DNA of 64,000 nucleotides from Microtetraspora malaysiensis. GTDB lineage: Bacteria > Actinomycetota > Actinomycetes > Streptosporangiales > Streptosporangiaceae. The stretch lies in assembly GCF_001528665.1 (NCBI RefSeq), contig NZ_BBYJ01000006.1, positions 434,001-498,000 on the forward strand, in the 5' to 3' direction. The notes beneath the pieces were generated by a model. It was not told the DNA's origin. It saw nothing but the letters and a program-made list of their open reading frames with translations, and did not search any database. The position numbers and the translations under genes were made by a program. This document shows positions 6,883 to 19,066 of this stretch, in pieces (the first letter of the stretch is position 1; every line of letters begins with the position of its first letter).

Positions 6883-8313
<1,431 letters not shown>

Positions 8314-8460
8314 CCGGCGGCTCCGTACCGGCCCGACCCGGTGGCCCACGGCCGCCGGGTCGTCGGCGTGTACGCGCGGCATGGGCGATGGCTCCGGGAC
8401 CCGGAGAATCGCCGCGGCCATCCGCGAGATCAAACACCATCATCACCGTCTGGCCGTCAC

Positions 8461-9973
8461 GCCAATGCCGTTTAGTTAACGATCATTGTCTGGCTCGGGG
8501 TTGTCGGGGCAGCAGCGCGACGGTGGGCGGTCCTGCGTGCCGGATGCCCTTGTCAGAGGGGCGACGTTCTCTGTAGCTGCTGCGTCGGATGCGTTTGACG
8601 GCTCGGGGGTAGCTGCGGTGGCGGCGGGCGGGGTTGCGGTTGCGGGGCCGGCCGACCTGGTAGACGGTGCGGGTCCAAAGGTCGTCGTGGGGCTCAGGGG
8701 GAAAAGGCCGCCCGGTCGGTGACCGAGCGGCGCACGATGCGCAGGGTGGCCAGGAACTTGATCCGGTCGGGGTCGATCCCGGCGGTGGTGGCCGCGACGC
8801 AGATCAGGGTGGCCAGGGCCCAGTGGGTGAGGAGATAGGCCCAGATCTCCTGGCGCACCAGGTCGGGAGTGCGGGAGCGCAGGATCCGGCCCGGCCCACG
8901 CAGATGGGTCTTCAGCTGGTCGAACCCGGTTTCGGCTTCCCACCGCTGGTGGTAGCAGGAGGCCAGGTGCTCGGCGGTGGCCTCGGCCGGGTCGAGGATG
9001 CTGGTGATCAGCCTGATGTGGTCGCCTTTGCGATCGGGCACGGTGTAGTCGACCACCCGGACGACCATCGCCCGGTCGGGGTCGAGGGGCTGGCCCTGGC
9101 GGGCGTCTTCACGCAGCCGGTCCTTCTGTGACCTGTGCAGGCCGATCACGGGGTTGGTGATGACCGCGAGCCAGGATCCATCCTCTAGGTCCCGCAGCCA
9201 GTACGGGCGCAGCCCGGCCTGCACCCGCCACAGCAGCTGGGCGCCGCTACGGCTGGCCTGACCCCAGGCGTAGAAGCTGTAGAAGCCGCGATCGGCGAGC
9301 AGCAGCATGTCCTGCTCCAGCCGCTCATACAGGGAGTAGGCCAGGGTCTGTTCACCGTCCCAGCAGCCCGACACGTCTGCCGCGACGATCGCGTGACTGG
9401 CGCACTCGCTGATGGCCACGACCCGGGCCTGCGCAAATGCCGTCTCGTAGCCGCCCGCGCTGTCCTTGGGGAACTCCTCTAAGTTCGCCTCAGTGTCGGG
9501 CAGGTCGAGCACGAACCCGTCGATCGCCATCAGCCGCCACCTCCCCAGCCAGGCACCCGCCGTCGCCGGGGAGGCGGCTGGGCGGGCCACCCGCTCGAAC
9601 ACCTCCTTGACCGGCTCGGCACCCAACCGCTGCCGGGCCTGCGTCACCGCCCCTCGCGTCGGCGGCTCCCACCGCGAGCCCGGCATCCAGGCGAGCATCC
9701 CGGTCAGCTTCTCGGCGACCTCCTCGTAGTCATCGTCAGGAAACAGGCACAGCGCGATCAGGAGATAGACGACCACGTGCGCAGGGAGCTTCCGCACCCG
9801 CCGCTCACGGCACCCGTACTTCTCGATCGCCCCGTCCAGGACCTCCCGCGGCAGCAACGACGTCAACGCACCCAGCGCCACCAGATCCGTCAACCGGGAC
9901 GGCCCACCGGTCTTGATCCACTCCGCCACCAGCGGAAGCTATCAGCCCAAACCCCTATCTAAACGGCATTGGG
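8461..9973. mobile_element. Intact IS4-family insertion sequence
   Basis: About 1.51 kb with terminal inverted repeats: CCAATGCCGTTTAG at the left (8462-8475) and its reverse complement at the right (9959-9972). The target duplication GCCGTCAC flanks it at 8453-8460 and 9974-9981; depending on where the tips are drawn it is 8 or 9 bp. It holds one transposase gene on the minus strand. The 8461-8693 part has no convincing gene. It has inserted into copy A of the local inverted repeat, and the sequence rejoins cleanly when it is removed, so the insertion looks recent. Confidence 0.9.
8694..9929 (-). CDS. IS4-family transposase
   Basis: 411 residues from a GTG at 9929. The N-terminal part (WIKTGGPSRLTDLVALGALT to about residue 100) resembles the IS4 transposase N-terminal domain. 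The DDE catalytic core follows, with Asp in LMAIDGFVLDLPDT and Asp in LLADRGFYSFYAW. The family signature Y-x2-R-x3-E-x6-K is intact in YHQRWEAETGFDQLK. There is no frameshift or internal stop, so the element may be active. Transposases of this type cut and paste their own element via the terminal repeats. Confidence 0.93.
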   Translation of the reverse strand: MAEWIKTGGPSRLTDLVALGALTSLLPREVLDGAIEKYGCRERRVRKLPAHVVVYLLIALCLFPDDDYEEVAEKLTGMLAWMPGSRWEPPTRGAVTQARQRLGAEPVKEVFERVARPAASPATAGAWLGRWRLMAIDGFVLDLPDTEANLEEFPKDSAGGYETAFAQARVVAISECASHAIVAADVSGCWDGEQTLAYSLYERLEQDMLLLADRGFYSFYAWGQASRSGAQLLWRVQAGLRPYWLRDLEDGSWLAVITNPVIGLHRSQKDRLREDARQGQPLDPDRAMVVRVVDYTVPDRKGDHIRLITSILDPAEATAEHLASCYHQRWEAETGFDQLKTHLRGPGRILRSRTPDLVRQEIWAYLLTHWALATLICVAATTAGIDPDRIKFLATLRIVRRSVTDRAAFSP

Positions 9974-10089
9974 GCCGTCACCGGCTTGAAACTACACCTT
10001 GAATGGATACCTGACCTGCGATGAAGACTTTGCGGGTCACCCTTGGGACGCCCTGGCACCGATCACCAATAGTAACGTTTCGCCCACCC

Positions 10090-10114
10090 TAGCCAGTCTT
10101 GCTAGTCAGTCTTG
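10090..10114 (+). repeat. Tandem 12-bp direct repeat overlapping the -35 box
   Basis: TAGCCAGTCTTG (10090-10101) and TAGTCAGTCTTG (10103-10114) differ at one base and lie 13 bp apart. The second copy overlaps the first bases of the -35 hexamer of the peptide promoter, a natural place for a regulator to bind. Confidence 0.6.
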
Positions 10115-10141
10115 ACGTCCTCTTACTCTCTCGCATAAAGT
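10112..10141 (+). promoter_or_regulatory. Strong promoter of the six-cysteine peptide gene
   Basis: TTGACG (10112-10117) and TAAAGT (10136-10141) are 18 bp apart, near consensus for the housekeeping sigma factor. Initiation near 10148 would give a leader of about 85 bases. The region is clearly richer in A and T than the chromosome around it. Confidence 0.65.
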
Positions 10142-10198
10142 ACGATCATCGCAATCGGGGCAATCCACTAGTCAAACTCTCGAAAGTCGTAAACGCAC

Positions 10199-10213
10199 GG
10201 ACAATAATTGTCC
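10199..10213 (+). promoter_or_regulatory. Perfect palindrome next to the ribosome binding site
   Basis: GGACAATAATTGTCC has 7-bp arms about a central A. It ends immediately before the Shine-Dalgarno sequence AGAAAGGA (10214-10221). It could be an operator within the transcribed leader or a small RNA hairpin affecting translation; the sequence does not decide between these. Confidence 0.5.
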
Positions 10214-10232
10214 AGAAAGGAAAGTGAACGAT

Positions 10233-10445
10233 ATGAAGTTTGCCATCGGTCGCATTGCCGACCGTATCCTCGCGTCGTTCGTGCCGGAGTTGCGTGCGTC
10301 TGCCGCAGGAAAATGCGTGAGGTCGACCTGGTCGACGACCGTCGGGTGCCCGGGTACAGGTGTCAAGAAATGTACCGATTGGGAGGACTGCACTAGCGGC
10401 CGTGGCCTGGGTTACACATGCGAGCCATGTATCCCAATGGGGTGA
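10233..10445 (+). CDS. Six-cysteine small peptide, putative exported disulfide-rich precursor
   Basis: 70 residues from ATG 10233, chosen over GTG 10224 because the Shine-Dalgarno AGAAAGGA at 10214-10221 fits the ATG (about 9 bases after the virtual GGAGG) and would touch the GTG. Residues 1-24 are charged and amphipathic (IGRIADRILASFVPELRASA) without a Sec-type hydrophobic core, and end in ASA, a signal-peptidase-like site. The remaining ~46 residues carry Cys at 28, 39, 47, 53, 63 and 66, enough for three disulfides, plus Gly, Thr and Trp. It has its own promoter with repeat elements. Nearby are an S26 peptidase, ABC exporter, TlpA-like thioredoxin and MauE-like protein, with no lanthipeptide, lasso or radical-SAM enzymes. 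I do not recognise a named family. Role as antimicrobial or signal peptide is inference. Confidence 0.7.
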   Translation: MKFAIGRIADRILASFVPELRASAAGKCVRSTWSTTVGCPGTGVKKCTDWEDCTSGRGLGYTCEPCIPMG

Positions 10446-10564
10446 CCCGCAAAGTCTTCATCCGCTGGTCAGGCATCCATTCAGGGTGTAGTTTCAAGCC
10501 CGTGACGGCCAGAAGCCGGTGAGGATGGTGTTTGATCTCGCGGATAGCCGCGGCGATTCTCCGG
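10432..10564 (-). repeat. Copy B of the ~130-bp inverted repeat
   Basis: The reverse complement matches copy A (8401-8460 plus 9974-10048). It overlaps the last codons and the stop of the six-cysteine peptide gene. On the minus strand it reads RRIAAAIREIKHHPHRLL and then, a few residues on, LKLHPEWMPDQRMKTLRVTP without interruption. No function is recognised. It may be the residue of a mobile or duplicated unit. Confidence 0.75.
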
Positions 10565-10740
10565 GCGGGGCTGACGGACGAGCCCGATGGTGGTGTTACG
10601 GAGCGCAGCAATAAGGCGGGGCCGAGACCCGGTAGTGACAGCTGAGGCGTCTTCGCGGACCTCGTGAATTCATCGGCCATCGGGTGATCGTCATTTAGTG
10701 TCATATATGGTGAGAGGTGCCGCTCTGGCCTGGCATGATC

Positions 10741-11060
10741 TGGATTGTCTAGATCTCGATCCTGCGGGAGAACGGCACCTCGAAAGTGAAGCCTACGACA
10801 CCCGCCGGATTGCGGCGATAGATCAAGCGTGCTAAAGAACGGCGGCGTCGCCGGGAACTGGAAAAGCGTACGTCAGCGTGGTCGACAGGACTGGAGCTGA
10901 CCGACGGCGCCACCGGACTGGTCCCCGCCGCCGGTGTCCCCCTGCTCCGGCTGTTCGCCGAGAAATCCGGCCTGCGCGGCCACGCCTCCACGGCGCTGGC
11001 CGTGCCCGGGTTCCCGCCAGACGCGCGGCCTGACGCCGAATACGCCGATGAGCGGGTGAT
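10741..11060 (+). pseudogene. N-terminal transposase remnant, IS1380-like
   Basis: Bases from about 10788 translate to KPTTPAGLRR, an in-frame stop, then IKRAKERRRRRELEKR and further on GLVPAAGVPLLRLFAEK and GLRGHASTALAVPGF, like the N-terminus of IS1380-type transposases; this is from memory of the family, so the type is tentative. The homology stops near 11060 where a different transposase remnant begins. A 9-bp inverted repeat, GAGGTGCCG (10714-10722) and CGGCACCTC (10773-10781), lies just upstream and may be part of the old element end. Confidence 0.55.
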
Positions 11061-11772
11061 GGTGCAAAGGGCGGCGACAAGTTCCTGCCCGGCTGGCCCT
11101 ATAGCCTGCTGGTAGGCGTGCAGTGGGGAGACTCCTCCTGGGTGGACCCGATCGAGGCGCGCCGGCTCTGGCCGGGTGACGAGCACCGATGTCACCATCG
11201 AGCAGATCACCGGCTTGCTGGCCGACCCGGAGGTGGCCGGTCGGCTCACCGCGGCGATCCGCCGCCGCTGATCATGCTGGACGCCGGGAACTACGCCACC
11301 GACATCTCCCACGCGCTGGCCGACCGGTACGTTCAGGTCCTGGTCCGGCTGCGCGCCACCCGCGTCTTCTACGCCGACCCCGAACCCCGTCGGCCTTTCG
11401 ACCAAGAGCATTTCACCGGTTCGGCAGGGTCTATCTGGGCATGGCCCGCGCCCATCTGGCCTCGGCGCGAGCCGCCGATCGCTGGATGCATCTGATCATG
11501 GCCGCTACGCCCACCTCCGGCTGGCCAGCCCGCACGTCGACGACCTGCGCCGTCCCTGGCATCCACGTCCCCAACCGGGAAGACCGCTCAGCCCCTACCG
11601 GGTCCGCCTCGGCTTTCGCCGTCTCCGCGCAAAGCTCGGGACACCTGCCAGCTCGCCGATACTCACCCGACCCGGCCCCGGATGTCCCAAGGGGTCAAGG
11701 AACGGCCGAAGGACAAGCGTCCGCCCGCCTTACCGAAAGACCGTAACGACCAACAACGAACACCGAGAGTGA
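11061..11772 (+). pseudogene. C-terminal DDE transposase remnant with frameshifts
   Basis: Pieces in several frames give GGDKFLPGWPYSLLVG, WVDPIEARRLWPGDE, DVTIEQITGLLADPEVAGRL, LIMLDAGNYATDISHALAD and, near the end, GFRRLRAKLGTPASS then RPGPGCPKGSRNGR, with a stop at 11770-11772. This order and tail are those of large actinobacterial transposases of the IS701-like group. At least two frameshifts and loss of the N-terminal half make it non-functional. Both this and the preceding piece show that the island has accumulated several elements in turn. Confidence 0.7.
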
Positions 11773-11872
11773 CGTTAAATCGTAAGCTAAGGGTCGGTTC
11801 CGGGCGCGGATGGAGGGAGTCTCAGCGCCCGCGTCGGTACTGGTATGAAGGGCCGAATCGGGGGCCAGCCCG

Positions 11873-11901
11873 GGTTGCGGAAAGATGATGTTTCCACAAC
11901 C
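11873..11901 (+). promoter_or_regulatory. Hairpin in the mauE-like leader
   Basis: GGTTGCGGAAA (11873-11883) pairs with TTTCCACAACC (11891-11901), 11 positions with one mismatch and a 7-base loop. It ends 10 bases before the ribosome site of the MauE-like gene. Possible operator or RNA structure; weak evidence. Confidence 0.3.
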
Positions 11902-11921
11902 GACCTCGCCCGGAGGGTCCA

Positions 11922-12482
11922 ATGCACGATGTTATGCTCATTATCACGCCGATCATCGAGATCGCCGCCCGATCCGCACTGGTCCTCGTCTTCGCCATCG
12001 CGTCGTGGGCTAAGCTAACCGACCGGGAGCGCTATGCCGCTTTCGCTACATCACTTGGCGAGATGGGGGTTCTGCCCCGTCGACTTGTCCACTCAGCCGC
12101 CATGATTTCGGCCGCTGCCGAAGTGGTGACTGCCACACTTTTAGTGATTCCCGTCGATGCCGCAGGCACCGCTGGTTTCACACTTGCGGTGACGCTCTTC
12201 ACCGCCTTCACCGCTGCTATCGGCGTCTCGCTCAGGCGTGGCAATCGCGAGCCGTGTGCGTGCTTCGGGCGCTCCCAAACTCCCCTCGGGCGGATTCACA
12301 TTGTGCGGAACATCGGGTTGCTATCCATCGCTGTCCTCGGCCTCACGGCAACACACGCTGGTGGTGACGTGCCACCACCAGCGGCGTTCACCATCGCAAT
12401 AGCCGTAGGTCTCGTCCTCGGCCTCCTCGCAGTAATGGCAGACGACCTCGCGGGACTCCTTCGCGTCGAGCCTACTCCGTAG
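11922..12482 (+). CDS. MauE/DoxX-like redox-associated membrane protein
   Basis: 186 residues, ATG 11922 with GGAGGG five bases upstream. About five membrane segments (near residues 9-31, 54-77, 80-104, 124-145, 152-178). The motif EPCACFG with Cys112 and Cys114 sits in the loop before the fourth segment, as in MauE-type proteins that pass electrons to or from periplasmic thioredoxin-like partners and are needed for disulfide formation in methylamine dehydrogenase. No methylamine genes are here; instead a TlpA-like protein, a peptide exporter and a six-Cys peptide lie nearby, so I infer a role in forming the peptide's disulfides. Codon 74 (12141-12143) is TTA, rare in such genomes. The gene is flanked by IS debris on both sides. 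Confidence 0.85.
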   Translation: MHDVMLIITPIIEIAARSALVLVFAIASWAKLTDRERYAAFATSLGEMGVLPRRLVHSAAMISAAAEVVTATLLVIPVDAAGTAGFTLAVTLFTAFTAAIGVSLRRGNREPCACFGRSQTPLGRIHIVRNIGLLSIAVLGLTATHAGGDVPPPAAFTIAIAVGLVLGLLAVMADDLAGLLRVEPTP

Positions 12483-12490
12483 GTAGGAAT

Positions 12491-12518
12491 GAAGTTCGAC
12501 CAACGCCTCGCGAACTTC
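12491..12518 (+). terminator. Candidate terminator after the MauE-like gene
   Basis: GAAGTTCG (12491-12498) and CGAACTTC (12511-12518) form an 8-bp stem with a 12-base loop starting 9 bp after the stop. A second small hairpin (GATCAC / GTGATC, 12566-12582) follows. No T tract. Confidence 0.4.
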
Positions 12519-12936
12519 CGTCTCAAGCTGAGCGACGAGCGTTAGTAGTACTTCATTAACTTAACGATCACTTAGCGTGATCATTCTGAAAAGTCGCTTC
12601 GGAATCATGATCTCGCGACACCCGACGAGATGGCGCAGGTATGCCAACTGCTTGAGAAGTTCGCAGGTCAAATGTCGCGAAGAGTACTTCGTCGCCGCGA
12701 TCTGATGACGCCCTGTGATTTCGACTCCGACGCTTTCTGTGTGGAGGCGTTACGGTGTGTGATCAGATCGTGTTCAGGAATCGGATCTGGAGCAGGTCGC
12801 AGAACCGGAATACCACGGGGCAGTCGCATTTACATGCAGAAGGCCGCTAAAGTGCAATCACAGCGGACGCTGCCCGCTCGAAGCCCAAGCCACGCTCTGT
12901 AGCTGTTCCACAGAGAAAGCGTCAGAGCAGATTTCG
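12519..12936. other. Gene-poor, lower-GC stretch in the island
   Basis: No convincing gene. A 90-codon open frame at 12630-12902 on the plus strand has no ribosome site, no recognisable motif and actinomycete-unlike codon use, so I do not call it. Composition is visibly more A/T-rich than the flanking chromosome. Probably decayed foreign or IS-derived DNA. Confidence 0.5.
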
Positions 12937-13225
12937 CCGATCGTGTGGCATCTGACCGACGATCCGGGCCTATCTGAACGGCGAGCGGGTGCCGGGGCAA
13001 AGGCGGCGGAGCACAGCCGATCCGTTCGAGCCGTTCGCCGAGTGCTGTCGGCTGCGGCTGGATGCCGAGGTCGGGGATCCGCGGCTGTGGGCCACGACGC
13101 TGTTCGACGAGTTGATCGAGCTGGGAAATGGGGCAGCTATTCCACGGCACGGGGCAGAGCCGAGTGCGACCGTCTCCATCTCCCAGATGGCGCGGGAGAA
13201 GAACTGGTGCGCCCGCGACCAGTAA
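12937..13225 (+). pseudogene. IS21-type transposase (IstA) fragment
   Basis: Translation gives AYLNGERVPGQRRRSTADP followed by FEPFAECCRLRLDAEV and DPRLWATTLFDELIELG, which I recognise as the region following the helix-turn-helix of IS21-family IstA proteins. The upstream HTH part is frameshifted (WHLTDDPGLS then the NGERVPG frame), and downstream the reading degenerates and stops at 13223-13225. Only about 95 codons of a ~400-codon gene remain. The 187 bp from here to the S26 peptidase gene hold nothing I can identify. Confidence 0.65.
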
Positions 13226-13412
13226 CAGCGGCCCGCCAGCCCCGCAGTGCTCCACATCCCAGTGACCGTACGCGCACCCGAACTGCCCAAGGTGTAGGAA
13301 CCAGGACCACCGGCGCTTCCGTCTCTTCGGGCGGCGCGTTCCCCATTCAGGGAATTTTACGGAGCGTCATCAACGCCCGCCGCTTCCGATCATGAAAATG
13401 GCGAAACTTCAG

Positions 13413-13937
13413 TTAAGAGCCAGGTGGTTCTCTCCGATCGCGGTCATCCGCTCGAGCGCCAAGAGGTCCGATGTCCGATCTCCCGAACGGTCCAGAACCA
13501 ACCGGCCGGGAACGCGGGTCGAGCGGGCGGCGCGAAAACATGCGGCGGACTGCGCAGGCGTACACATCGGCTAGGGCGAAGGGACCATGGATCCGCGAGT
13601 CGAAGCTATGCGTGGTGTTGTCCCCGAGAAGGATCACCTGACCGGCGCGTACCGTTTCGCCCTCCCAGGTGTGGCCGGGCAGGGCGGCCACACGCTTCAC
13701 CAAGTAGCGCGTGATCCCACGGTGCCGTGGCGCGACAGCGCCGGGCGGCAATTCCTTGCCCCGGTTAACCACGGCGACGATGTCCCCCGCCCGGAGGTCG
13801 CGTCCGGCGACGCGCGCCGTGCCTCGCCGGTGACGTACTCGCCGGGCGAGCAACCGGTCGCCGTCGCGCAGGGTCGGTTCCATGCTAAGGCCTTCGACGG
13901 TGAGCACGGTGAGCCAGTAACCGAGCAGGCGCTTCAT
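13413..13937 (-). CDS. S26-family signal peptidase
   Basis: 174 residues. The catalytic Ser is in VEGLSMEPTLRDGD (Ser18) and the general-base Lys in RYLVKRVAALPG (Lys81); the conserved VILLGDNTTHSFDSR box and a second short domain follow. The short hydrophobic N-terminus (LLGYWLTVLTV) may dip into the membrane. The last ~40 residues are basic and poorly conserved-looking. Its ATG overlaps the stop of the ABC exporter gene (ATGA), so the two are translationally coupled. An S26 enzyme tied to an ABC exporter that lacks a peptidase domain suggests a dedicated leader peptidase; the ASA site of the six-Cys peptide nearby is a natural candidate substrate. That link is inference. Confidence 0.87.
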   Translation of the reverse strand: MKRLLGYWLTVLTVEGLSMEPTLRDGDRLLARRVRHRRGTARVAGRDLRAGDIVAVVNRGKELPPGAVAPRHRGITRYLVKRVAALPGHTWEGETVRAGQVILLGDNTTHSFDSRIHGPFALADVYACAVRRMFSRRPLDPRSRPVGSGPFGRSDIGPLGARADDRDRREPPGS

Positions 13938-15892
13938 CGGCTCCCCTCTCCCGCCGGGATCCCACCGTGCCCGGTGGGAGGCACACCAACAGCATTAGCG
14001 CCAACCTCCGCGGCGTCGGTGTAGCCAGCGGACTGGAGGCGGAACATGCGGGCGTACGTGCCGCCGGTCGCCATGAGTTGGTCGTGGGTGCCCTGCTCAG
14101 CGACGACCCCGTCACGCAGGACGACTATGAGATCGGCATCGCGGACTGTGTTGAGCCGGTGGGAGATGAGCAGGCTTGTACGTCCGGCGCGGTGAGCGCG
14201 CATGCGGGCGTGGACATCGGCCTCGGATTCTGGGTCCAGCCCAGATGACGGCTCGTCAAGGATCATCAGGTCGCGGTCGGCGCGCAAGAACGCCCGCGCG
14301 AGCGCGGTGCGCTGCCACTGGCCGCCGGAGAGCACCACGCCGGTCTCCGGATCGTCCTTGTCGGTCTCGGAGGTAAAGATCCGCGACAGCTGCGTCTCAT
14401 AGCCGCGAGGCAGGGCGTCGAGGACGTCGTCGATCCCGGCTCGCCGAGCGGCCACGCGGATCCGATCGAGATCGTGGAGGGCGTCGAGGGAGCCGAGGCC
14501 GACGTTCTCTCGGGCGGTCAGGTCGTACGTCATGTGGTCCTGGAAGACGCCGCTGATCCGGTCCCGTAGTGCGGCCGGATCCATGTCCCGCAGATCCACC
14601 CCGTCCCACGTGATCGAACCCTGCTGCGGATCGTAGAACCGCAGCACCAGCTTGACCAGCGTGGACTTGCCCGCCCCGTTCACTCCGACGATGCCCACCG
14701 TGGCCCCATGAGGGATCCGTAGCGAGACTCCGCGTAGGATCCACGGGTGGTCCGGCGAGTACCGAAACCAAACATCGCGCAGCTCCAACTCACTGGTGAG
14801 GGGCCGCAGCGGCGTCGGTACGGCCGGCACTGGCAGGTCGGGGGCAGCACGGACGATCGCCACGTGGTGGCTGAACATGAGCAACCCGCTGTACATCCTG
14901 CCCGCCTCGGAGATCAACGCAGCGGCCCCGCCGAGCATAGAACCTATGGCTATGGCGAACATCGACACATCCCCCACCGACAGGGATCCGGCGCGGGCGG
15001 CGAACGTTGCCCACACCAGACCGCCTGCGGAGATGACCGCACCCAGCGTGCCGAGCAGCCCCTTGGCGCGCAGCTCCCGACCGTCCATCCGCCGCCGCTC
15101 ACTGTTGATCAGTGTGAGTTCGCCCAGCAGCCGGTCGCGCAGCCAACCGCCGGTGCCGAACAACCGGATCTCCTTGGCCGCCCGGTAATCGGTGAGTAGC
15201 CCCCCGTAGAAGAAGTGCCGCCGTTCATGGGGCGACATGTCCATCATCATGAGGTTGCGCTGCTTGGACAGCTTCACCTGCACGATCAGGCCCGGCACCG
15301 CGGCCACCATGGCCACCAGCGTCATTACCGGCGACACCACCCATAACGCAGTTGCGAACCCGATCAGGCTGATCACCGACTCCACAGCCATAAACCCACC
15401 CGTGATAAGCGCCTCACCTGCCGCCGCCGCCTGCTGCCCCAGCCTGAGCCGGTCCAGCACGCCCGGATCTTCGAACCGTGCCAGCCCGGCGAACCGCACA
15501 GTCGCCGAGAACAGATCGGCTGCGGCCCGCACCGTGAACGCCCGCCCGAGGCAGCCTCCCAGATACTGCGACAGATGCGGCAGTCCGGCGGTCGCCACCG
15601 CGAGCACCCCCAACAGGCCCACCCGCCAGGCCAGCGCGGCCGGGGTGACCGCCGGGTCAGGGATCCCGTCTACCAATAGCTTCATCGCCCACGCAGACGC
15701 CACCGGGGCCAGACCCTGCACCACGACCACTAACGCGTACGCGGTCATCACTCCCGGCGCAGATTGCGCCGAAATCCGTACGATTTCGGCCAGCGAGGCG
15801 CCCAGCCCCGCCTCGTACAGCGCTGCGGCACCCTCATCACGCGCTGCTGCCCGCGGCGAGCCGAAGAGCTTCTCTGCGGCCTCAGGCTCCAT
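13934..15892 (-). CDS. ABC exporter (fused membrane and ATPase domains), peptide-export type
   Basis: 652 residues starting at ATG 15892; the frame is open further upstream but only as a shadow of the preceding gene. The N-terminal half has about six membrane segments; the ATPase half shows Walker A GVNGAGKSTLVKL, signature VLSGGQWQRTALARAF, Walker B LMILDEPSSGLDPE and the switch His in LLISHRLNTV. There is no N-terminal C39 cysteine peptidase domain, so leader removal must come from another protein; the S26 peptidase gene overlaps its 3' end. Its start overlaps the end of the TlpA-like gene by 11 bp. These three genes form one tight minus-strand operon. It resembles exporters of RiPP and bacteriocin clusters; the actual cargo is not shown by sequence. 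Confidence 0.9.
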   Translation of the reverse strand: MEPEAAEKLFGSPRAAARDEGAAALYEAGLGASLAEIVRISAQSAPGVMTAYALVVVVQGLAPVASAWAMKLLVDGIPDPAVTPAALAWRVGLLGVLAVATAGLPHLSQYLGGCLGRAFTVRAAADLFSATVRFAGLARFEDPGVLDRLRLGQQAAAAGEALITGGFMAVESVISLIGFATALWVVSPVMTLVAMVAAVPGLIVQVKLSKQRNLMMMDMSPHERRHFFYGGLLTDYRAAKEIRLFGTGGWLRDRLLGELTLINSERRRMDGRELRAKGLLGTLGAVISAGGLVWATFAARAGSLSVGDVSMFAIAIGSMLGGAAALISEAGRMYSGLLMFSHHVAIVRAAPDLPVPAVPTPLRPLTSELELRDVWFRYSPDHPWILRGVSLRIPHGATVGIVGVNGAGKSTLVKLVLRFYDPQQGSITWDGVDLRDMDPAALRDRISGVFQDHMTYDLTARENVGLGSLDALHDLDRIRVAARRAGIDDVLDALPRGYETQLSRIFTSETDKDDPETGVVLSGGQWQRTALARAFLRADRDLMILDEPSSGLDPESEADVHARMRAHRAGRTSLLISHRLNTVRDADLIVVLRDGVVAEQGTHDQLMATGGTYARMFRLQSAGYTDAAEVGANAVGVPPTGHGGIPAGEGSR

Positions 15893-16481
15893 GGGCGCTA
15901 GCCCGCTCGATCCCGCGCATCGAACGGTCAGACGTGCGGACGACCCCGCCAGCGTCCACCAGGAACACCAGCGGGAACCCGTCCACGGCGAACGCCTCCT
16001 GCAGCGGGCGGCCCTGCATTGTCTCCACAACTACCCTTGCCACTGGGGCGAGACGCTCCGCGTACGCCAGTGCGCCCTTCCCGTCGGCGCCGTCCACGAC
16101 CGCGACCACCTTTTCGCGGTCAAGGGTCGAGGCGTACGTGGTGAACACTGGTAGGAGCTCCTCGCACGGCTTGCAACCCGGGGAGAAGAAGCCGAGCAGT
16201 GTGCCGTCGCCCAGCCCGTCACGGGTCAGTTCGGCGCCCTCGTGATCCACGACCGTGAACTCCCCGGCCTGCTCCCCCGCTTGCACGTGGGTGTCGCCCA
16301 TGCCTGACCCGCCGCCCCGCTCCAGCAGGTGGTTGAGGCGCTCGGTGTGGACCCGCAGCCGGCGGATCACGGCGAACGTCAGCAGCAGGTTGAGCAGGCA
16401 GAGCAGGCCGACCAGGACGACGGCGGCGGCGAGATAACCCATGAAGAGCACCCAATCTGAGTAGTTTATGTACCCTTTCAA
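15882..16481 (-). CDS. Membrane-anchored TlpA-like thioredoxin
   Basis: 199 residues if started at TTG 16481; an ATG at 16442 (residue 14) is the alternative, and neither has a clear ribosome site. One membrane segment near residues 11-39, then a linker and a thioredoxin-like domain with active site SPGCKPCEELLP (Cys103, Cys106) and the cis-Pro loop DGFPLVFLVD. Such proteins reduce or oxidise disulfides outside the membrane, often with MauE or DsbD/CcdA-like partners. First gene of the minus-strand operon with the ABC exporter and S26 peptidase. An IS5-type remnant begins about 140 bp upstream, so the original promoter may have been lost or replaced. Confidence 0.85.
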   Translation of the reverse strand: MKGYINYSDWVLFMGYLAAAVVLVGLLCLLNLLLTFAVIRRLRVHTERLNHLLERGGGSGMGDTHVQAGEQAGEFTVVDHEGAELTRDGLGDGTLLGFFSPGCKPCEELLPVFTTYASTLDREKVVAVVDGADGKGALAYAERLAPVARVVVETMQGRPLQEAFAVDGFPLVFLVDAGGVVRTSDRSMRGIERASAHGA

Positions 16482-16619
16482 TATAGCTTGGGCAAATCCG
16501 GTAGATCTTTGTCTCGTTCGTGACGATCCTCCGCCGCTACCATGAGCACAGCAGGAATGGCGAGGTCAACTGATACGTGGTCAGAGGGTGTTTGATTCCA
16601 TAGGTTCCGTTTGATTGAA

Positions 16620-17117
16620 GTTATACGCCTCGCCAGGTAGGGGTGGATTCGTCGGTGAGGTGTCGGGCCATGAGGTCGAGGTCGATTATGGCCAGGTGGA
16701 TTACGGCTTCGGAACGGGCGGGCAGGACTTCGTAGTTGCGTGCCAGGCGGCGATGGAACATCAGCCAACCGAAGATGCGCTCCACGGCCCAGCGGCGTGG
16801 AAAGGAGTAAATCCCCTGGTCGCGGGGTCGCGGCGAACGACTTCCACATCGATGCCGAGCACGGCAGCGTGTTCGATGAGGGTGGTTCTGTGGGCGCTGT
16901 CGGCCCAGGCCTTGGTGATCGTCGGGTAGCGGCGGCGACAATTGTCAGCAGTTGCCGGCCAGCGGTGCCGTCGGACATGCTGGCGGCTGTGACCAGCACC
17001 GCGAGCAGCAGCCCAAGGGTGTCGGTGACGATGCTGCGCTTGCGGCCGACAATCTTCTTGCCAGAATCGATGCCGTGGGTGGATGCGGGCGCATTGGCCA
17101 AGGTCTTGACGCTCTAG
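16620..17117 (-). pseudogene. IS5-family transposase remnant
   Basis: Minus-strand pieces read ANAPASTHGIDSGKKIVGRK, LGLLLAVLVTAASMSDG and, after a frameshift, RWAVERIFGWLMFHRRLARN and HLTDESTPTWRG, the typical C-terminal half of IS5-type transposases of actinomycetes. The N-terminal half is missing and at least one frameshift separates the parts. It lies between the TlpA-like gene and the chromosomal ABC pair and marks the right edge of the island. Confidence 0.75.
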
Positions 17118-17269
17118 CTAGTCGGCTTTCCGGTGGAAAGCGGCTGATCGCGCCACATTTCCATTACGTCCCGTTATGATGTCATAGCGGTAAGTGGCGA
17201 AAAACCGGTTGATCGGACGTGAGCCGTAAGGAACCATGGCGGGAGCGAGCCGTCCCCCTTAGGTGAGGA

Positions 17270-19066
17270 GTGTCACGCCCGGTCATGCCGTCACGATCAG
17301 GACCCACCTCAGACGCTCGAAAACCCTCCTGGTCCTCGCTGTGGCGGCTCAAGTCGTATCTGCGCCCCTACACCCGGCCGGTGGTCCTCATGTGGGCGGC
17401 GGCCGTGCTCGGCATCGCGGCCGCCATCCTGACCCCGCTCGTCGGCAAGGAGATCATCGATGGTCCGGTGGCGCACGGCGACCAGGACGCGCTGCTGCCG
17501 CTGGGGCTGCTCGCGCTCGCGCTCGGCGTGGCCGAGGCCCTGCTCACCTTCCTGCGCCGCTGGTCCCAGGCCGCCCCCGTGCTCGGCCTGGAGACGGCGA
17601 TCCGCGACGACCTGTACCGCCACCTGCAGCGCCTGCCGATGCGCTTCCACGACGAATGGCAGTCCGGGCAGCTCCTCTCCCGCGCGACCACGGACCTGTC
17701 CACGATCCGGCGGTTCCTCGGGTTCGGCGTGCTGTTCCTCGTCATGAACGTCCTCCAGCTCACCACCGTGACCGTGGTGCTGCTGCGGATGTACTGGCCG
17801 CTCGGCCTGCTCGTCGCCGGTTCGGCGATCCCCGTCATCATCCTGTCGAATCGCTTCGAGAAACGGTACATCCGCATCTCCCGCCAGGTGCAGGACGAGC
17901 AGGGCGACCTCGCCACCTTCGTCGAGGAGAGCGCCCTCGGCGTCCGCACGATCAAGGCGTTCGGACGGCGGCGCCACGTGGCCGCGACGTACGACGGCCT
18001 GGCGGGCAAGGTGTACCGCACCTCCCTGGAGAAGGTGCGGCTGTCCTCCCGGTTCTTCACCTTCCTGGAAGTGGTGCCGAACGTCACCCTCGCCATGGTG
18101 CTGCTCCTCGGCGCGCTCGCCGTCGGCGGCGGCTGGCTGACCCTGGGCACGCTGGTGGCCTTCACCACGCTGGTGCTCCAGCTCGTCTGGCCGGTCACCT
18201 CGCTCGGGTACATCCTGGCGATGGGCCAGGAGGCCATGACGTCGGCGGACCGGGTCGTCGAGGTGCTCGACACCGTGCCCGAGATCGACGGCGGGGCGCA
18301 GGTCGTCGCCGAGCCGCGCGGCCACCTGCGTTTCGAGGGCGTCGGCTTCCGGTTCCCCGGCGCCGAGCGGCCCGTGCTGCGCGACGTCTGGCTTGAGGTG
18401 GAGCCGGGAGAGACCATAGCCATCGTCGGCGCGACCGGCTCGGGCAAGACCACGCTCACCGCGCTGGTGCCGCGGCTGGTCGACGTCACGGCCGGGCGCG
18501 TCACCGTCGACGGGCACGACGTGCGCGACCTGTCCCTGCCCTCGCTGCGTTCGGTGGTCGCCACCGCCTTCGAGGAGGCCACGCTGTTCTCGATGAGCGT
18601 CCGGGAGAACCTCACCCTCGGCCGCGGGGACGCCACCGACGAGGAGATCCGCGCCGCGCTGGAGATCGCCCAGGCCACCTTCGCGTACGACCTGCCCTGG
18701 GGGCTGGACACCCGCATCGGCGAGCAGGGCATGTCCCTGTCCGGCGGCCAGCGGCAGCGGCTCGCCCTGGCCCGCGCGGTGCTCGGCCGGCCCCGGATCC
18801 TCGTCCTGGACGACACCCTCTCGGCGCTCGACGTGGAGACCGAGGCCCTGGTCGAGGAGGCGTTGCGCGCCGTCCTCGCCGACGCCACCGGCCTCGTCGT
18901 CGCGCACCGGGCCTCGACCGTGCTGCTCGCCGACCGGGTCGCGCTCCTGCAGGACGGCACCATCACCCACGTCGGCCGCCACGCGGACCTGCTGGCCGAG
19001 GTCCCCGAATACCGGGCGCTCCTCGCGCAGGACGCCGATCTCGACCAGGAGGAGGCACTGCGGTGA
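17270..19066 (+). CDS. ABC exporter half-transporter, first of a pair
   Basis: 598 residues from GTG 17270, or 593 from ATG 17285; AGGTGAGGAG lies at 17261-17270, a little too close for the first and a little far for the second. Six membrane segments, then an ATPase domain with Walker A GATGSGKTTLTAL, canonical signature SLSGGQRQRLALARAV, and Walker B ILVLDDTLSALD. The residue after the Walker B Asp is Asp, not the catalytic Glu. With the partner's altered signature this is the pattern of a heterodimeric exporter with one degenerate and one active ATP site. It overlaps the next gene by four bases (GTGA). Substrate (drug, lipid or other) is not determined by sequence. Confidence 0.92.
   Translation: MSRPVMPSRSGPTSDARKPSWSSLWRLKSYLRPYTRPVVLMWAAAVLGIAAAILTPLVGKEIIDGPVAHGDQDALLPLGLLALALGVAEALLTFLRRWSQAAPVLGLETAIRDDLYRHLQRLPMRFHDEWQSGQLLSRATTDLSTIRRFLGFGVLFLVMNVLQLTTVTVVLLRMYWPLGLLVAGSAIPVIILSNRFEKRYIRISRQVQDEQGDLATFVEESALGVRTIKAFGRRRHVAATYDGLAGKVYRTSLEKVRLSSRFFTFLEVVPNVTLAMVLLLGALAVGGGWLTLGTLVAFTTLVLQLVWPVTSLGYILAMGQEAMTSADRVVEVLDTVPEIDGGAQVVAEPRGHLRFEGVGFRFPGAERPVLRDVWLEVEPGETIAIVGATGSGKTTLTALVPRLVDVTAGRVTVDGHDVRDLSLPSLRSVVATAFEEATLFSMSVRENLTLGRGDATDEEIRAALEIAQATFAYDLPWGLDTRIGEQGMSLSGGQRQRLALARAVLGRPRILVLDDTLSALDVETEALVEEALRAVLADATGLVVAHRASTVLLADRVALLQDGTITHVGRHADLLAEVPEYRALLAQDADLDQEEALR

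Follow-up and report, generated by a model that had tools for sequence, protein, structure and literature searches.

An uncatalogued family of cysteine-rich peptides, probably exported by a dedicated ABC transporter and trimmed by an S26 peptidase

In the 64,000-nucleotide stretch of Microtetraspora malaysiensis DNA analysed here (the window), a gene of 70 codons encodes a small protein with six cysteines and a charged N-terminal segment that ends in an AxA site. This architecture raises the question of how such a peptide would leave the cell, how it would mature and what purpose it would serve. The analysis places the gene in a large, uncatalogued family of Cys-rich peptides, which are probably exported, trimmed and disulfide-bonded, and which most likely act as antibiotic-like weapons. 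Clusters of this kind have been glimpsed by genome mining before; the family itself is still unnamed. The features of the locus are collected in Table 1.

Table 1. Precursor gene, partner genes and repeat or insertion features of the window.
Feature	Position	Strand	Details
Precursor peptide, 70 aa	10233..10445	+	Leader 1–24 MKFAIGRIADRILASFVPELRASA, predicted cut after A24, core 25–70 with six Cys
Predicted mature core, residues 25–70	10304..10442	+	C28-x10-C39-x7-C47-x5-C53-x9-C63-x2-C66; cut site predicted from conserved A22/A24
MauE-family membrane protein, 186 aa	11922..12482	+	PF07291 E=1.5e-23; CxC at C112, C114
S26 signal-peptidase-like protein	13413..13937	-	PF10502 1.5e-16; TIGR02227 3e-14; Ser18/Lys81 dyad, GDN-x3-S-x-DSR box
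ABC exporter, transmembrane region and ATPase	13934..15892	-	Without C39 peptidase domain; overlaps both flanking genes
TlpA/MauD-like membrane-anchored thioredoxin	15882..16442	-	MauD TIGR02661 5e-8, ResA 3e-8; CxxC C103/C106
Left arm, ~127-nt imperfect inverted repeat	8400-8461 + 9978-10042	.	Inner end 10020..10042; split by IS4-family element
Right arm, inverted repeat	10440..10566	.	Gives precursor's last codon and stop codon
IS4-family element in left repeat arm	8463-9977	.	Full-length transposase 8694-9929, minus strand
Transposase remains flanking MauE-S26-ABC-TlpA	10749-11746 and 16478-17101		

The translation of positions 10233–10445 is MKFAIGRIADRILASFVPELRASA-AGKCVRSTWSTTVGCPGTGVKKCTDWEDCTSGRGLGYTCEPCIPMG. 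A sequence-only reading had described the same frame, and its coordinates, its leader sequence, the A22-S23-A24 site followed by AGKC, and the cysteines at positions 28, 39, 47, 53, 63 and 66 all agree with this translation. The ATG at 10233 is preceded at ~10 nt by a purine-rich stretch, AGAAAGGAAAG, and an in-frame GTG at 10224 lies too near to that stretch to be the start. The leader had been called amphipathic and charged, without a hydrophobic core. Correspondingly, it carries a net charge of +2 and has a hydrophobic moment of 0.74, against 0.27–0.48 for the signal peptides of E. coli OmpA, PhoA and MalE (used as yardsticks), and its best 10-residue Kyte–Doolittle mean, 1.46, lies below the 1.9–2.8 of the same three yardsticks. 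The Kyte–Doolittle scan detected no hydrophobic h-region of the Sec type in this leader.

A scan of genome contigs with the window peptide as a single sequence returned no relative, because the cores are too variable. An alignment of six members from a family-level search (A1) matched 73 of 200 Streptosporangiaceae genomes at the loose limit of E ≤ 0.05. A phylum-wide precursor search, which scored 16 candidates per genome and is weak on absence, was also run. Overall, ~100 precursors were collected across several actinomycete families and one cyanobacterium, and the motif scan gave one background match in 1.3 Mb of reversed control sequence. When the 913 stop-to-stop frames of the window were searched with a profile of 94 precursors, built without the window precursor and without its C23 paralogue, the window precursor scored E = 2.6e-12 and the runner-up 0.47; the match is not due to chance. 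Separate searches with the two halves of the peptide had been proposed as a check, and they diverged: a leader-only, leave-one-out profile found the window precursor (E = 1.5e-6; next, 1.3), and a core-only profile did not. It is thus the leader that defines the family. A second precursor copy (E = 8e-4) lies at C23 of the same genome, adjoining a TlpA-like gene. Searches of Pfam, NCBIfam and PDB sequences with 39 family members gave nothing credible, in keeping with the sequence-only reading, which had recognised no family.

Family leaders follow the consensus DRLLxxxVPxxxAxA, which the window precursor carries with alanine at −3 and −1. These two alanines are the most strongly conserved feature of the leaders; in 39 aligned precursors, A24 is invariant and A22 occurs in at least 90%. 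D10, P18, A24 and most of the cysteines are conserved across members. Mean pairwise identity is 0.41 in the leader and 0.15 at non-Cys core positions, and reaches 0.74–0.96 in most Cys columns, while the spacing of the cysteines differs widely between members. Cys counts of 6, 8, 10, 4, 12 and, once, 5 were found in a set of 97 precursors that may include a few spurious entries; 96 of these counts are even, including the six of the window precursor. A leader-guided, all-disulfide peptide would be expected to combine a conserved leader with a diversifying core and cysteines in pairs, as is seen here. The smallest members seen, in Actinomadura (L131 and L155), have very short cores with four cysteines and lie beside an ABC gene. 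At another locus (L085, 9078–14964), six different precursors form one array with one shared set of machinery genes. An AlphaFold (AF2) model places strands of the core at residues 31–35, 43–49 and 61–63 with low confidence (mean pLDDT 66, pTM 0.39), and no solved fold matched it at E ≤ 0.001; the disulfide pattern is left unassigned.

All four partner genes of the family are present in the window, at 11922–16442. Searches of Pfam and NCBIfam detected no C39 peptidase domain on the ABC protein, whose subfamily is 45–51% identical among clusters. The S26 catalytic serine (107/108) and lysine (108/108) are conserved. The CxxC of the TlpA-like protein is likewise conserved (116/116), as is the CxC formed by C112 and C114 of MauE (83/83). 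Residue numbering of the TlpA/MauD-like protein starts at a TTG at 16481; Met14, at 16442, is conserved in 84 of 84 sequences and is the likelier start. This protein scores 32.5 bits against the MauD model, whose cut-off is 188.6.

Linkage of these genes to the precursors was observed in both search directions. Among 40 precursor neighbourhoods of 14–20 kb, a TlpA-like gene was found in 38, S26 in 36, the ABC subfamily in 34 and MauE in 29; two of the seed loci (L069 and L073), which lack all partner genes, are probably false matches. Four loci (L053, L057, L059 and L068) have TlpA adjoining S26 and no ABC gene of the subfamily within the fetched stretch. In the reverse search, named genomes were scanned with the ABC alignment (A4), the TlpA alignment having no stretch conserved enough for a genome scan. 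This yielded 80 loci, with TlpA in 75, S26 in 72, MauE in 52 and a precursor in ~70 (49 by motif, and 21 of the other 31 by profile). The ABC-anchored loci come from Streptomyces, Embleya, Nonomuraea, Actinomadura, Microbispora, Nocardiopsis, Nocardia, Micromonospora, Catellatospora, Lentzea, Amycolatopsis, Stackebrandtia and others, as well as from the cyanobacterium Komarekiella. The locus of Komarekiella atlantica (L170) has MauE, an eight-Cys precursor, a TlpA-like gene, S26 and an ABC gene (40% identical), and places the system outside the actinomycetes. Complete clusters also occur on plasmids of Streptomyces clavuligerus (L177, 4192–8417) and S. atratus (L178), where RefSeq labels the genes hypothetical protein, MauE/DoxX family, hypothetical protein, ABC transporter and S26 family signal peptidase; the upstream hypothetical proteins (WP_003953191.1 and WP_009999284.1) read as precursors. 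Besides the four partners, the sole recurrent genes encode SARP/BTAD activators, found at 23 of 40 and 29 of 80 loci, compared with 32 in the whole 8.8-Mb genome to which the window belongs (~0.065 per 18 kb). SARPs typically activate secondary metabolites. No Lan, YcaO or radical SAM enzyme recurred in the neighbourhoods.

The sequence-only reading had proposed that the leader is recognised by the exporter and removed by the S26 peptidase after the AxA site. An improbable alternative is that the peptide takes the Sec route with an unusual signal peptide, the S26 protein serving as an accessory signal peptidase and the ABC protein carrying something else. The AxA site with a proline at −7 does resemble a Sec signal-peptide c-region, S26 proteins are the classic signal peptidases, and for the cinnamycin-type leader, which ends in AFA/AYA, cleavage by the general (type I) signal peptidase has been postulated (PMC12837462). 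Across 97 precursors, however, the family leaders, of median length 24 and median hydrophobic moment 0.74, lack a hydrophobic core throughout (median best 10-residue Kyte–Doolittle mean, 0.97), and the precursors are consistently linked with one ABC subfamily. Export through the ABC protein followed by S26 cleavage is thus well supported by inference, because the family is uncatalogued, its leaders have no hydrophobic core and the alanines at −3 and −1 are conserved, and because ABC and S26 genes are linked to precursors in both search directions, the exporter has no C39 domain and the S26 Ser and Lys are kept. On this view, the mature product would be a secreted peptide of ~46 residues with disulfide bonds. 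The leader of 24 residues, in which an amphipathic helix (D-R-[IL]-L) precedes V-P-x3-A-x-A, would deliver the peptide, still unfolded, to its dedicated ABC exporter, and the dedicated S26 peptidase would cut after A24 outside the membrane. Recognition of the leader by the exporter and cleavage by S26 after residue 24 are both inferred steps.

The MauE and TlpA/MauD-like genes, absent from the sequence-only account of this precursor, indicate oxidative folding. As a membrane pair, their products would oxidise the six cysteines into a predicted set of three disulfides. Since MauE and MauD are known from the maturation of methylamine dehydrogenase and the core is Cys-rich with a CxxC, the product might instead bind metal or act as a redox carrier, with mau-like genes maturing it in the manner of that enzyme. 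This is highly improbable: no further mau gene is recurrent around the precursors, the Cys spacing varies widely, unlike a conserved metal site, and core Cys numbers are even throughout.

The folded product is proposed to be a bacteriocin-like antagonist under secondary-metabolite control. Antagonism is the likeliest role because of the variable cores, the several precursors at L085, the plasmid clusters and the SARP linkage, and the precursor arrays and Streptomyces plasmid clusters fit a diversifying product. It is also the part of which we are least sure, and stands about evenly poised, as the argument is indirect: no immunity gene was recognised in the clusters. With antagonism read from context in this way, and with SARP regulators also governing other processes, the same processing could yield a signal or developmental peptide. 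That reading is unlikely, for antagonism is the better fit to hypervariable cores, a patchy distribution, SARP enrichment and loci with several different precursors.

Whether the window copy itself still makes a peptide is a separate matter. Its genes run in the order precursor (+), insertion-sequence remains, MauE (+) and then, with overlapping ends, TlpA-ABC-S26 on the minus strand; a similar convergent order is seen at L084. The island sits between a pyruvate kinase gene and an ANTAR response-regulator gene (21015), which in relatives lie within ~2 kb of each other and once only 0.4 kb apart. The inverted repeat brackets the precursor gene and its upstream region; its inner 23 nt are perfect, and it is found nowhere else in the genome. 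Transposase remains separate the precursor from MauE, ~1.4 kb away. An IS5 remnant directly precedes tlpA, which makes operon expression here doubtful; no clear ribosome-binding site is seen at the conserved ATG, and the remnant may have taken away the tlpA promoter and ribosome-binding site. No Rfam RNA was found within 8000–17500.

Insertion sequences have fragmented this copy of the cluster, so that its activity is uncertain. It could be a relic that makes no product, with the genome relying on its other clusters: one is complete (C33:13547–19900, L205), with SARP, MauE, an eight-Cys precursor, TlpA, ABC and S26, and another (C23:82400–85490, L049) has TlpA, ABC and S26. The IS4-family element, the transposase remains and the stop codon supplied by the inverted repeat are in keeping with decay. 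The idea deserves to be taken seriously but is rather doubtful, given that all five reading frames are intact and the catalytic residues kept. C-terminal truncation by the repeat was considered and judged unlikely, since similar ends are found in other members: the window terminus, CEPCIPMG, resembles the natural ends CGPCIYRP and CGRCMPF.

Taken as a whole, leader-guided ABC export, S26 cleavage, disulfide folding and an antagonistic product form the best explanation of the locus, and one that we consider quite probable. In general terms, it is somewhat probable that the clusters represent a widespread, unnamed secretion and folding system, in which a non-Sec leader, short and amphipathic, directs Cys-rich peptides of hypervariable sequence to a C39-less ABC exporter, a dedicated S26 peptidase cleaves at AxA once they are outside the membrane, and the MauE/MauD-like pair makes all the disulfides, with leader and machinery as a general chassis for diversifying cores. 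Such a system would offer a rule, open to test, by which disulfide-rich peptides of antibiotic producers, a large class absent from Pfam and NCBIfam, could be found and produced. It would give MauE/MauD a peptide-folding role outside methylamine metabolism, and suggests that an S26 peptidase can stand in for a C39 domain in leader-guided ABC export. With a leader-only profile, ‘hypothetical proteins’ in many genomes can be recognised as predicted secreted peptides.

Kloosterman et al. (2020, PMC7794033) used decRiPPter to detect three mauE-containing candidate RiPP families in Streptomyces, one also with mauD. As described in the main text, these uncharacterised candidates combine MauE with a Cys-rich precursor of at least eight cysteines, a transporter, a peptidase and a regulator, and MauE/MauD were suggested to modify the RiPP precursors. 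In methylamine utilisation, MauE/MauD are proposed to form disulfides in the methylamine dehydrogenase subunit (cited in PMC7794033). The window locus likewise has MauE near a Cys-rich precursor, as in the mauE/mauD criterion of decRiPPter; its precursor has six cysteines, and counts of 8 to 12 occur elsewhere in the family. The main text of that study (PMC7794033) gives no leader motif, S26/ABC logic or spread beyond Streptomyces. By main-text description, the two sets are probably overlapping discoveries, because S. viridosporus, of which decRiPPter names strain T7A, carries the cassette and a family precursor in strain NRRL 2414 (L159). In the literature outside subscription journals and preprints, we found no description of the leader logic, the S26/ABC partnership or the wide spread.

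Cinnamycin-type lanthipeptides are also made from actinomycete precursors with leaders ending in AxA, but they differ in a 63-aa leader, in thioether cross-links installed by dedicated enzymes and in having no dedicated S26 protease or MauE/TlpA. Methylamine-utilisation MauE/MauD belong to the same protein families; their substrate and neighbours differ. Fulvocin C, a myxobacterial bacteriocin with four disulfides, was considered as a further comparison. Class II bacteriocins have double-glycine leaders, C39-peptidase ABC exporters and often disulfides. They share with the present family a small peptide and leader-guided ABC export, and differ in their GG site and C39 domain, in place of which the present family has AxA and a separate S26 peptidase; neither a GG/GA processing site nor an exporter C39 domain is present in the window system. 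The sequence-only interpretation holds up: the family would work like leader-guided bacteriocin export, with AxA and S26 apparently replacing GG and C39, and with a putative oxidative folding pair of its own.
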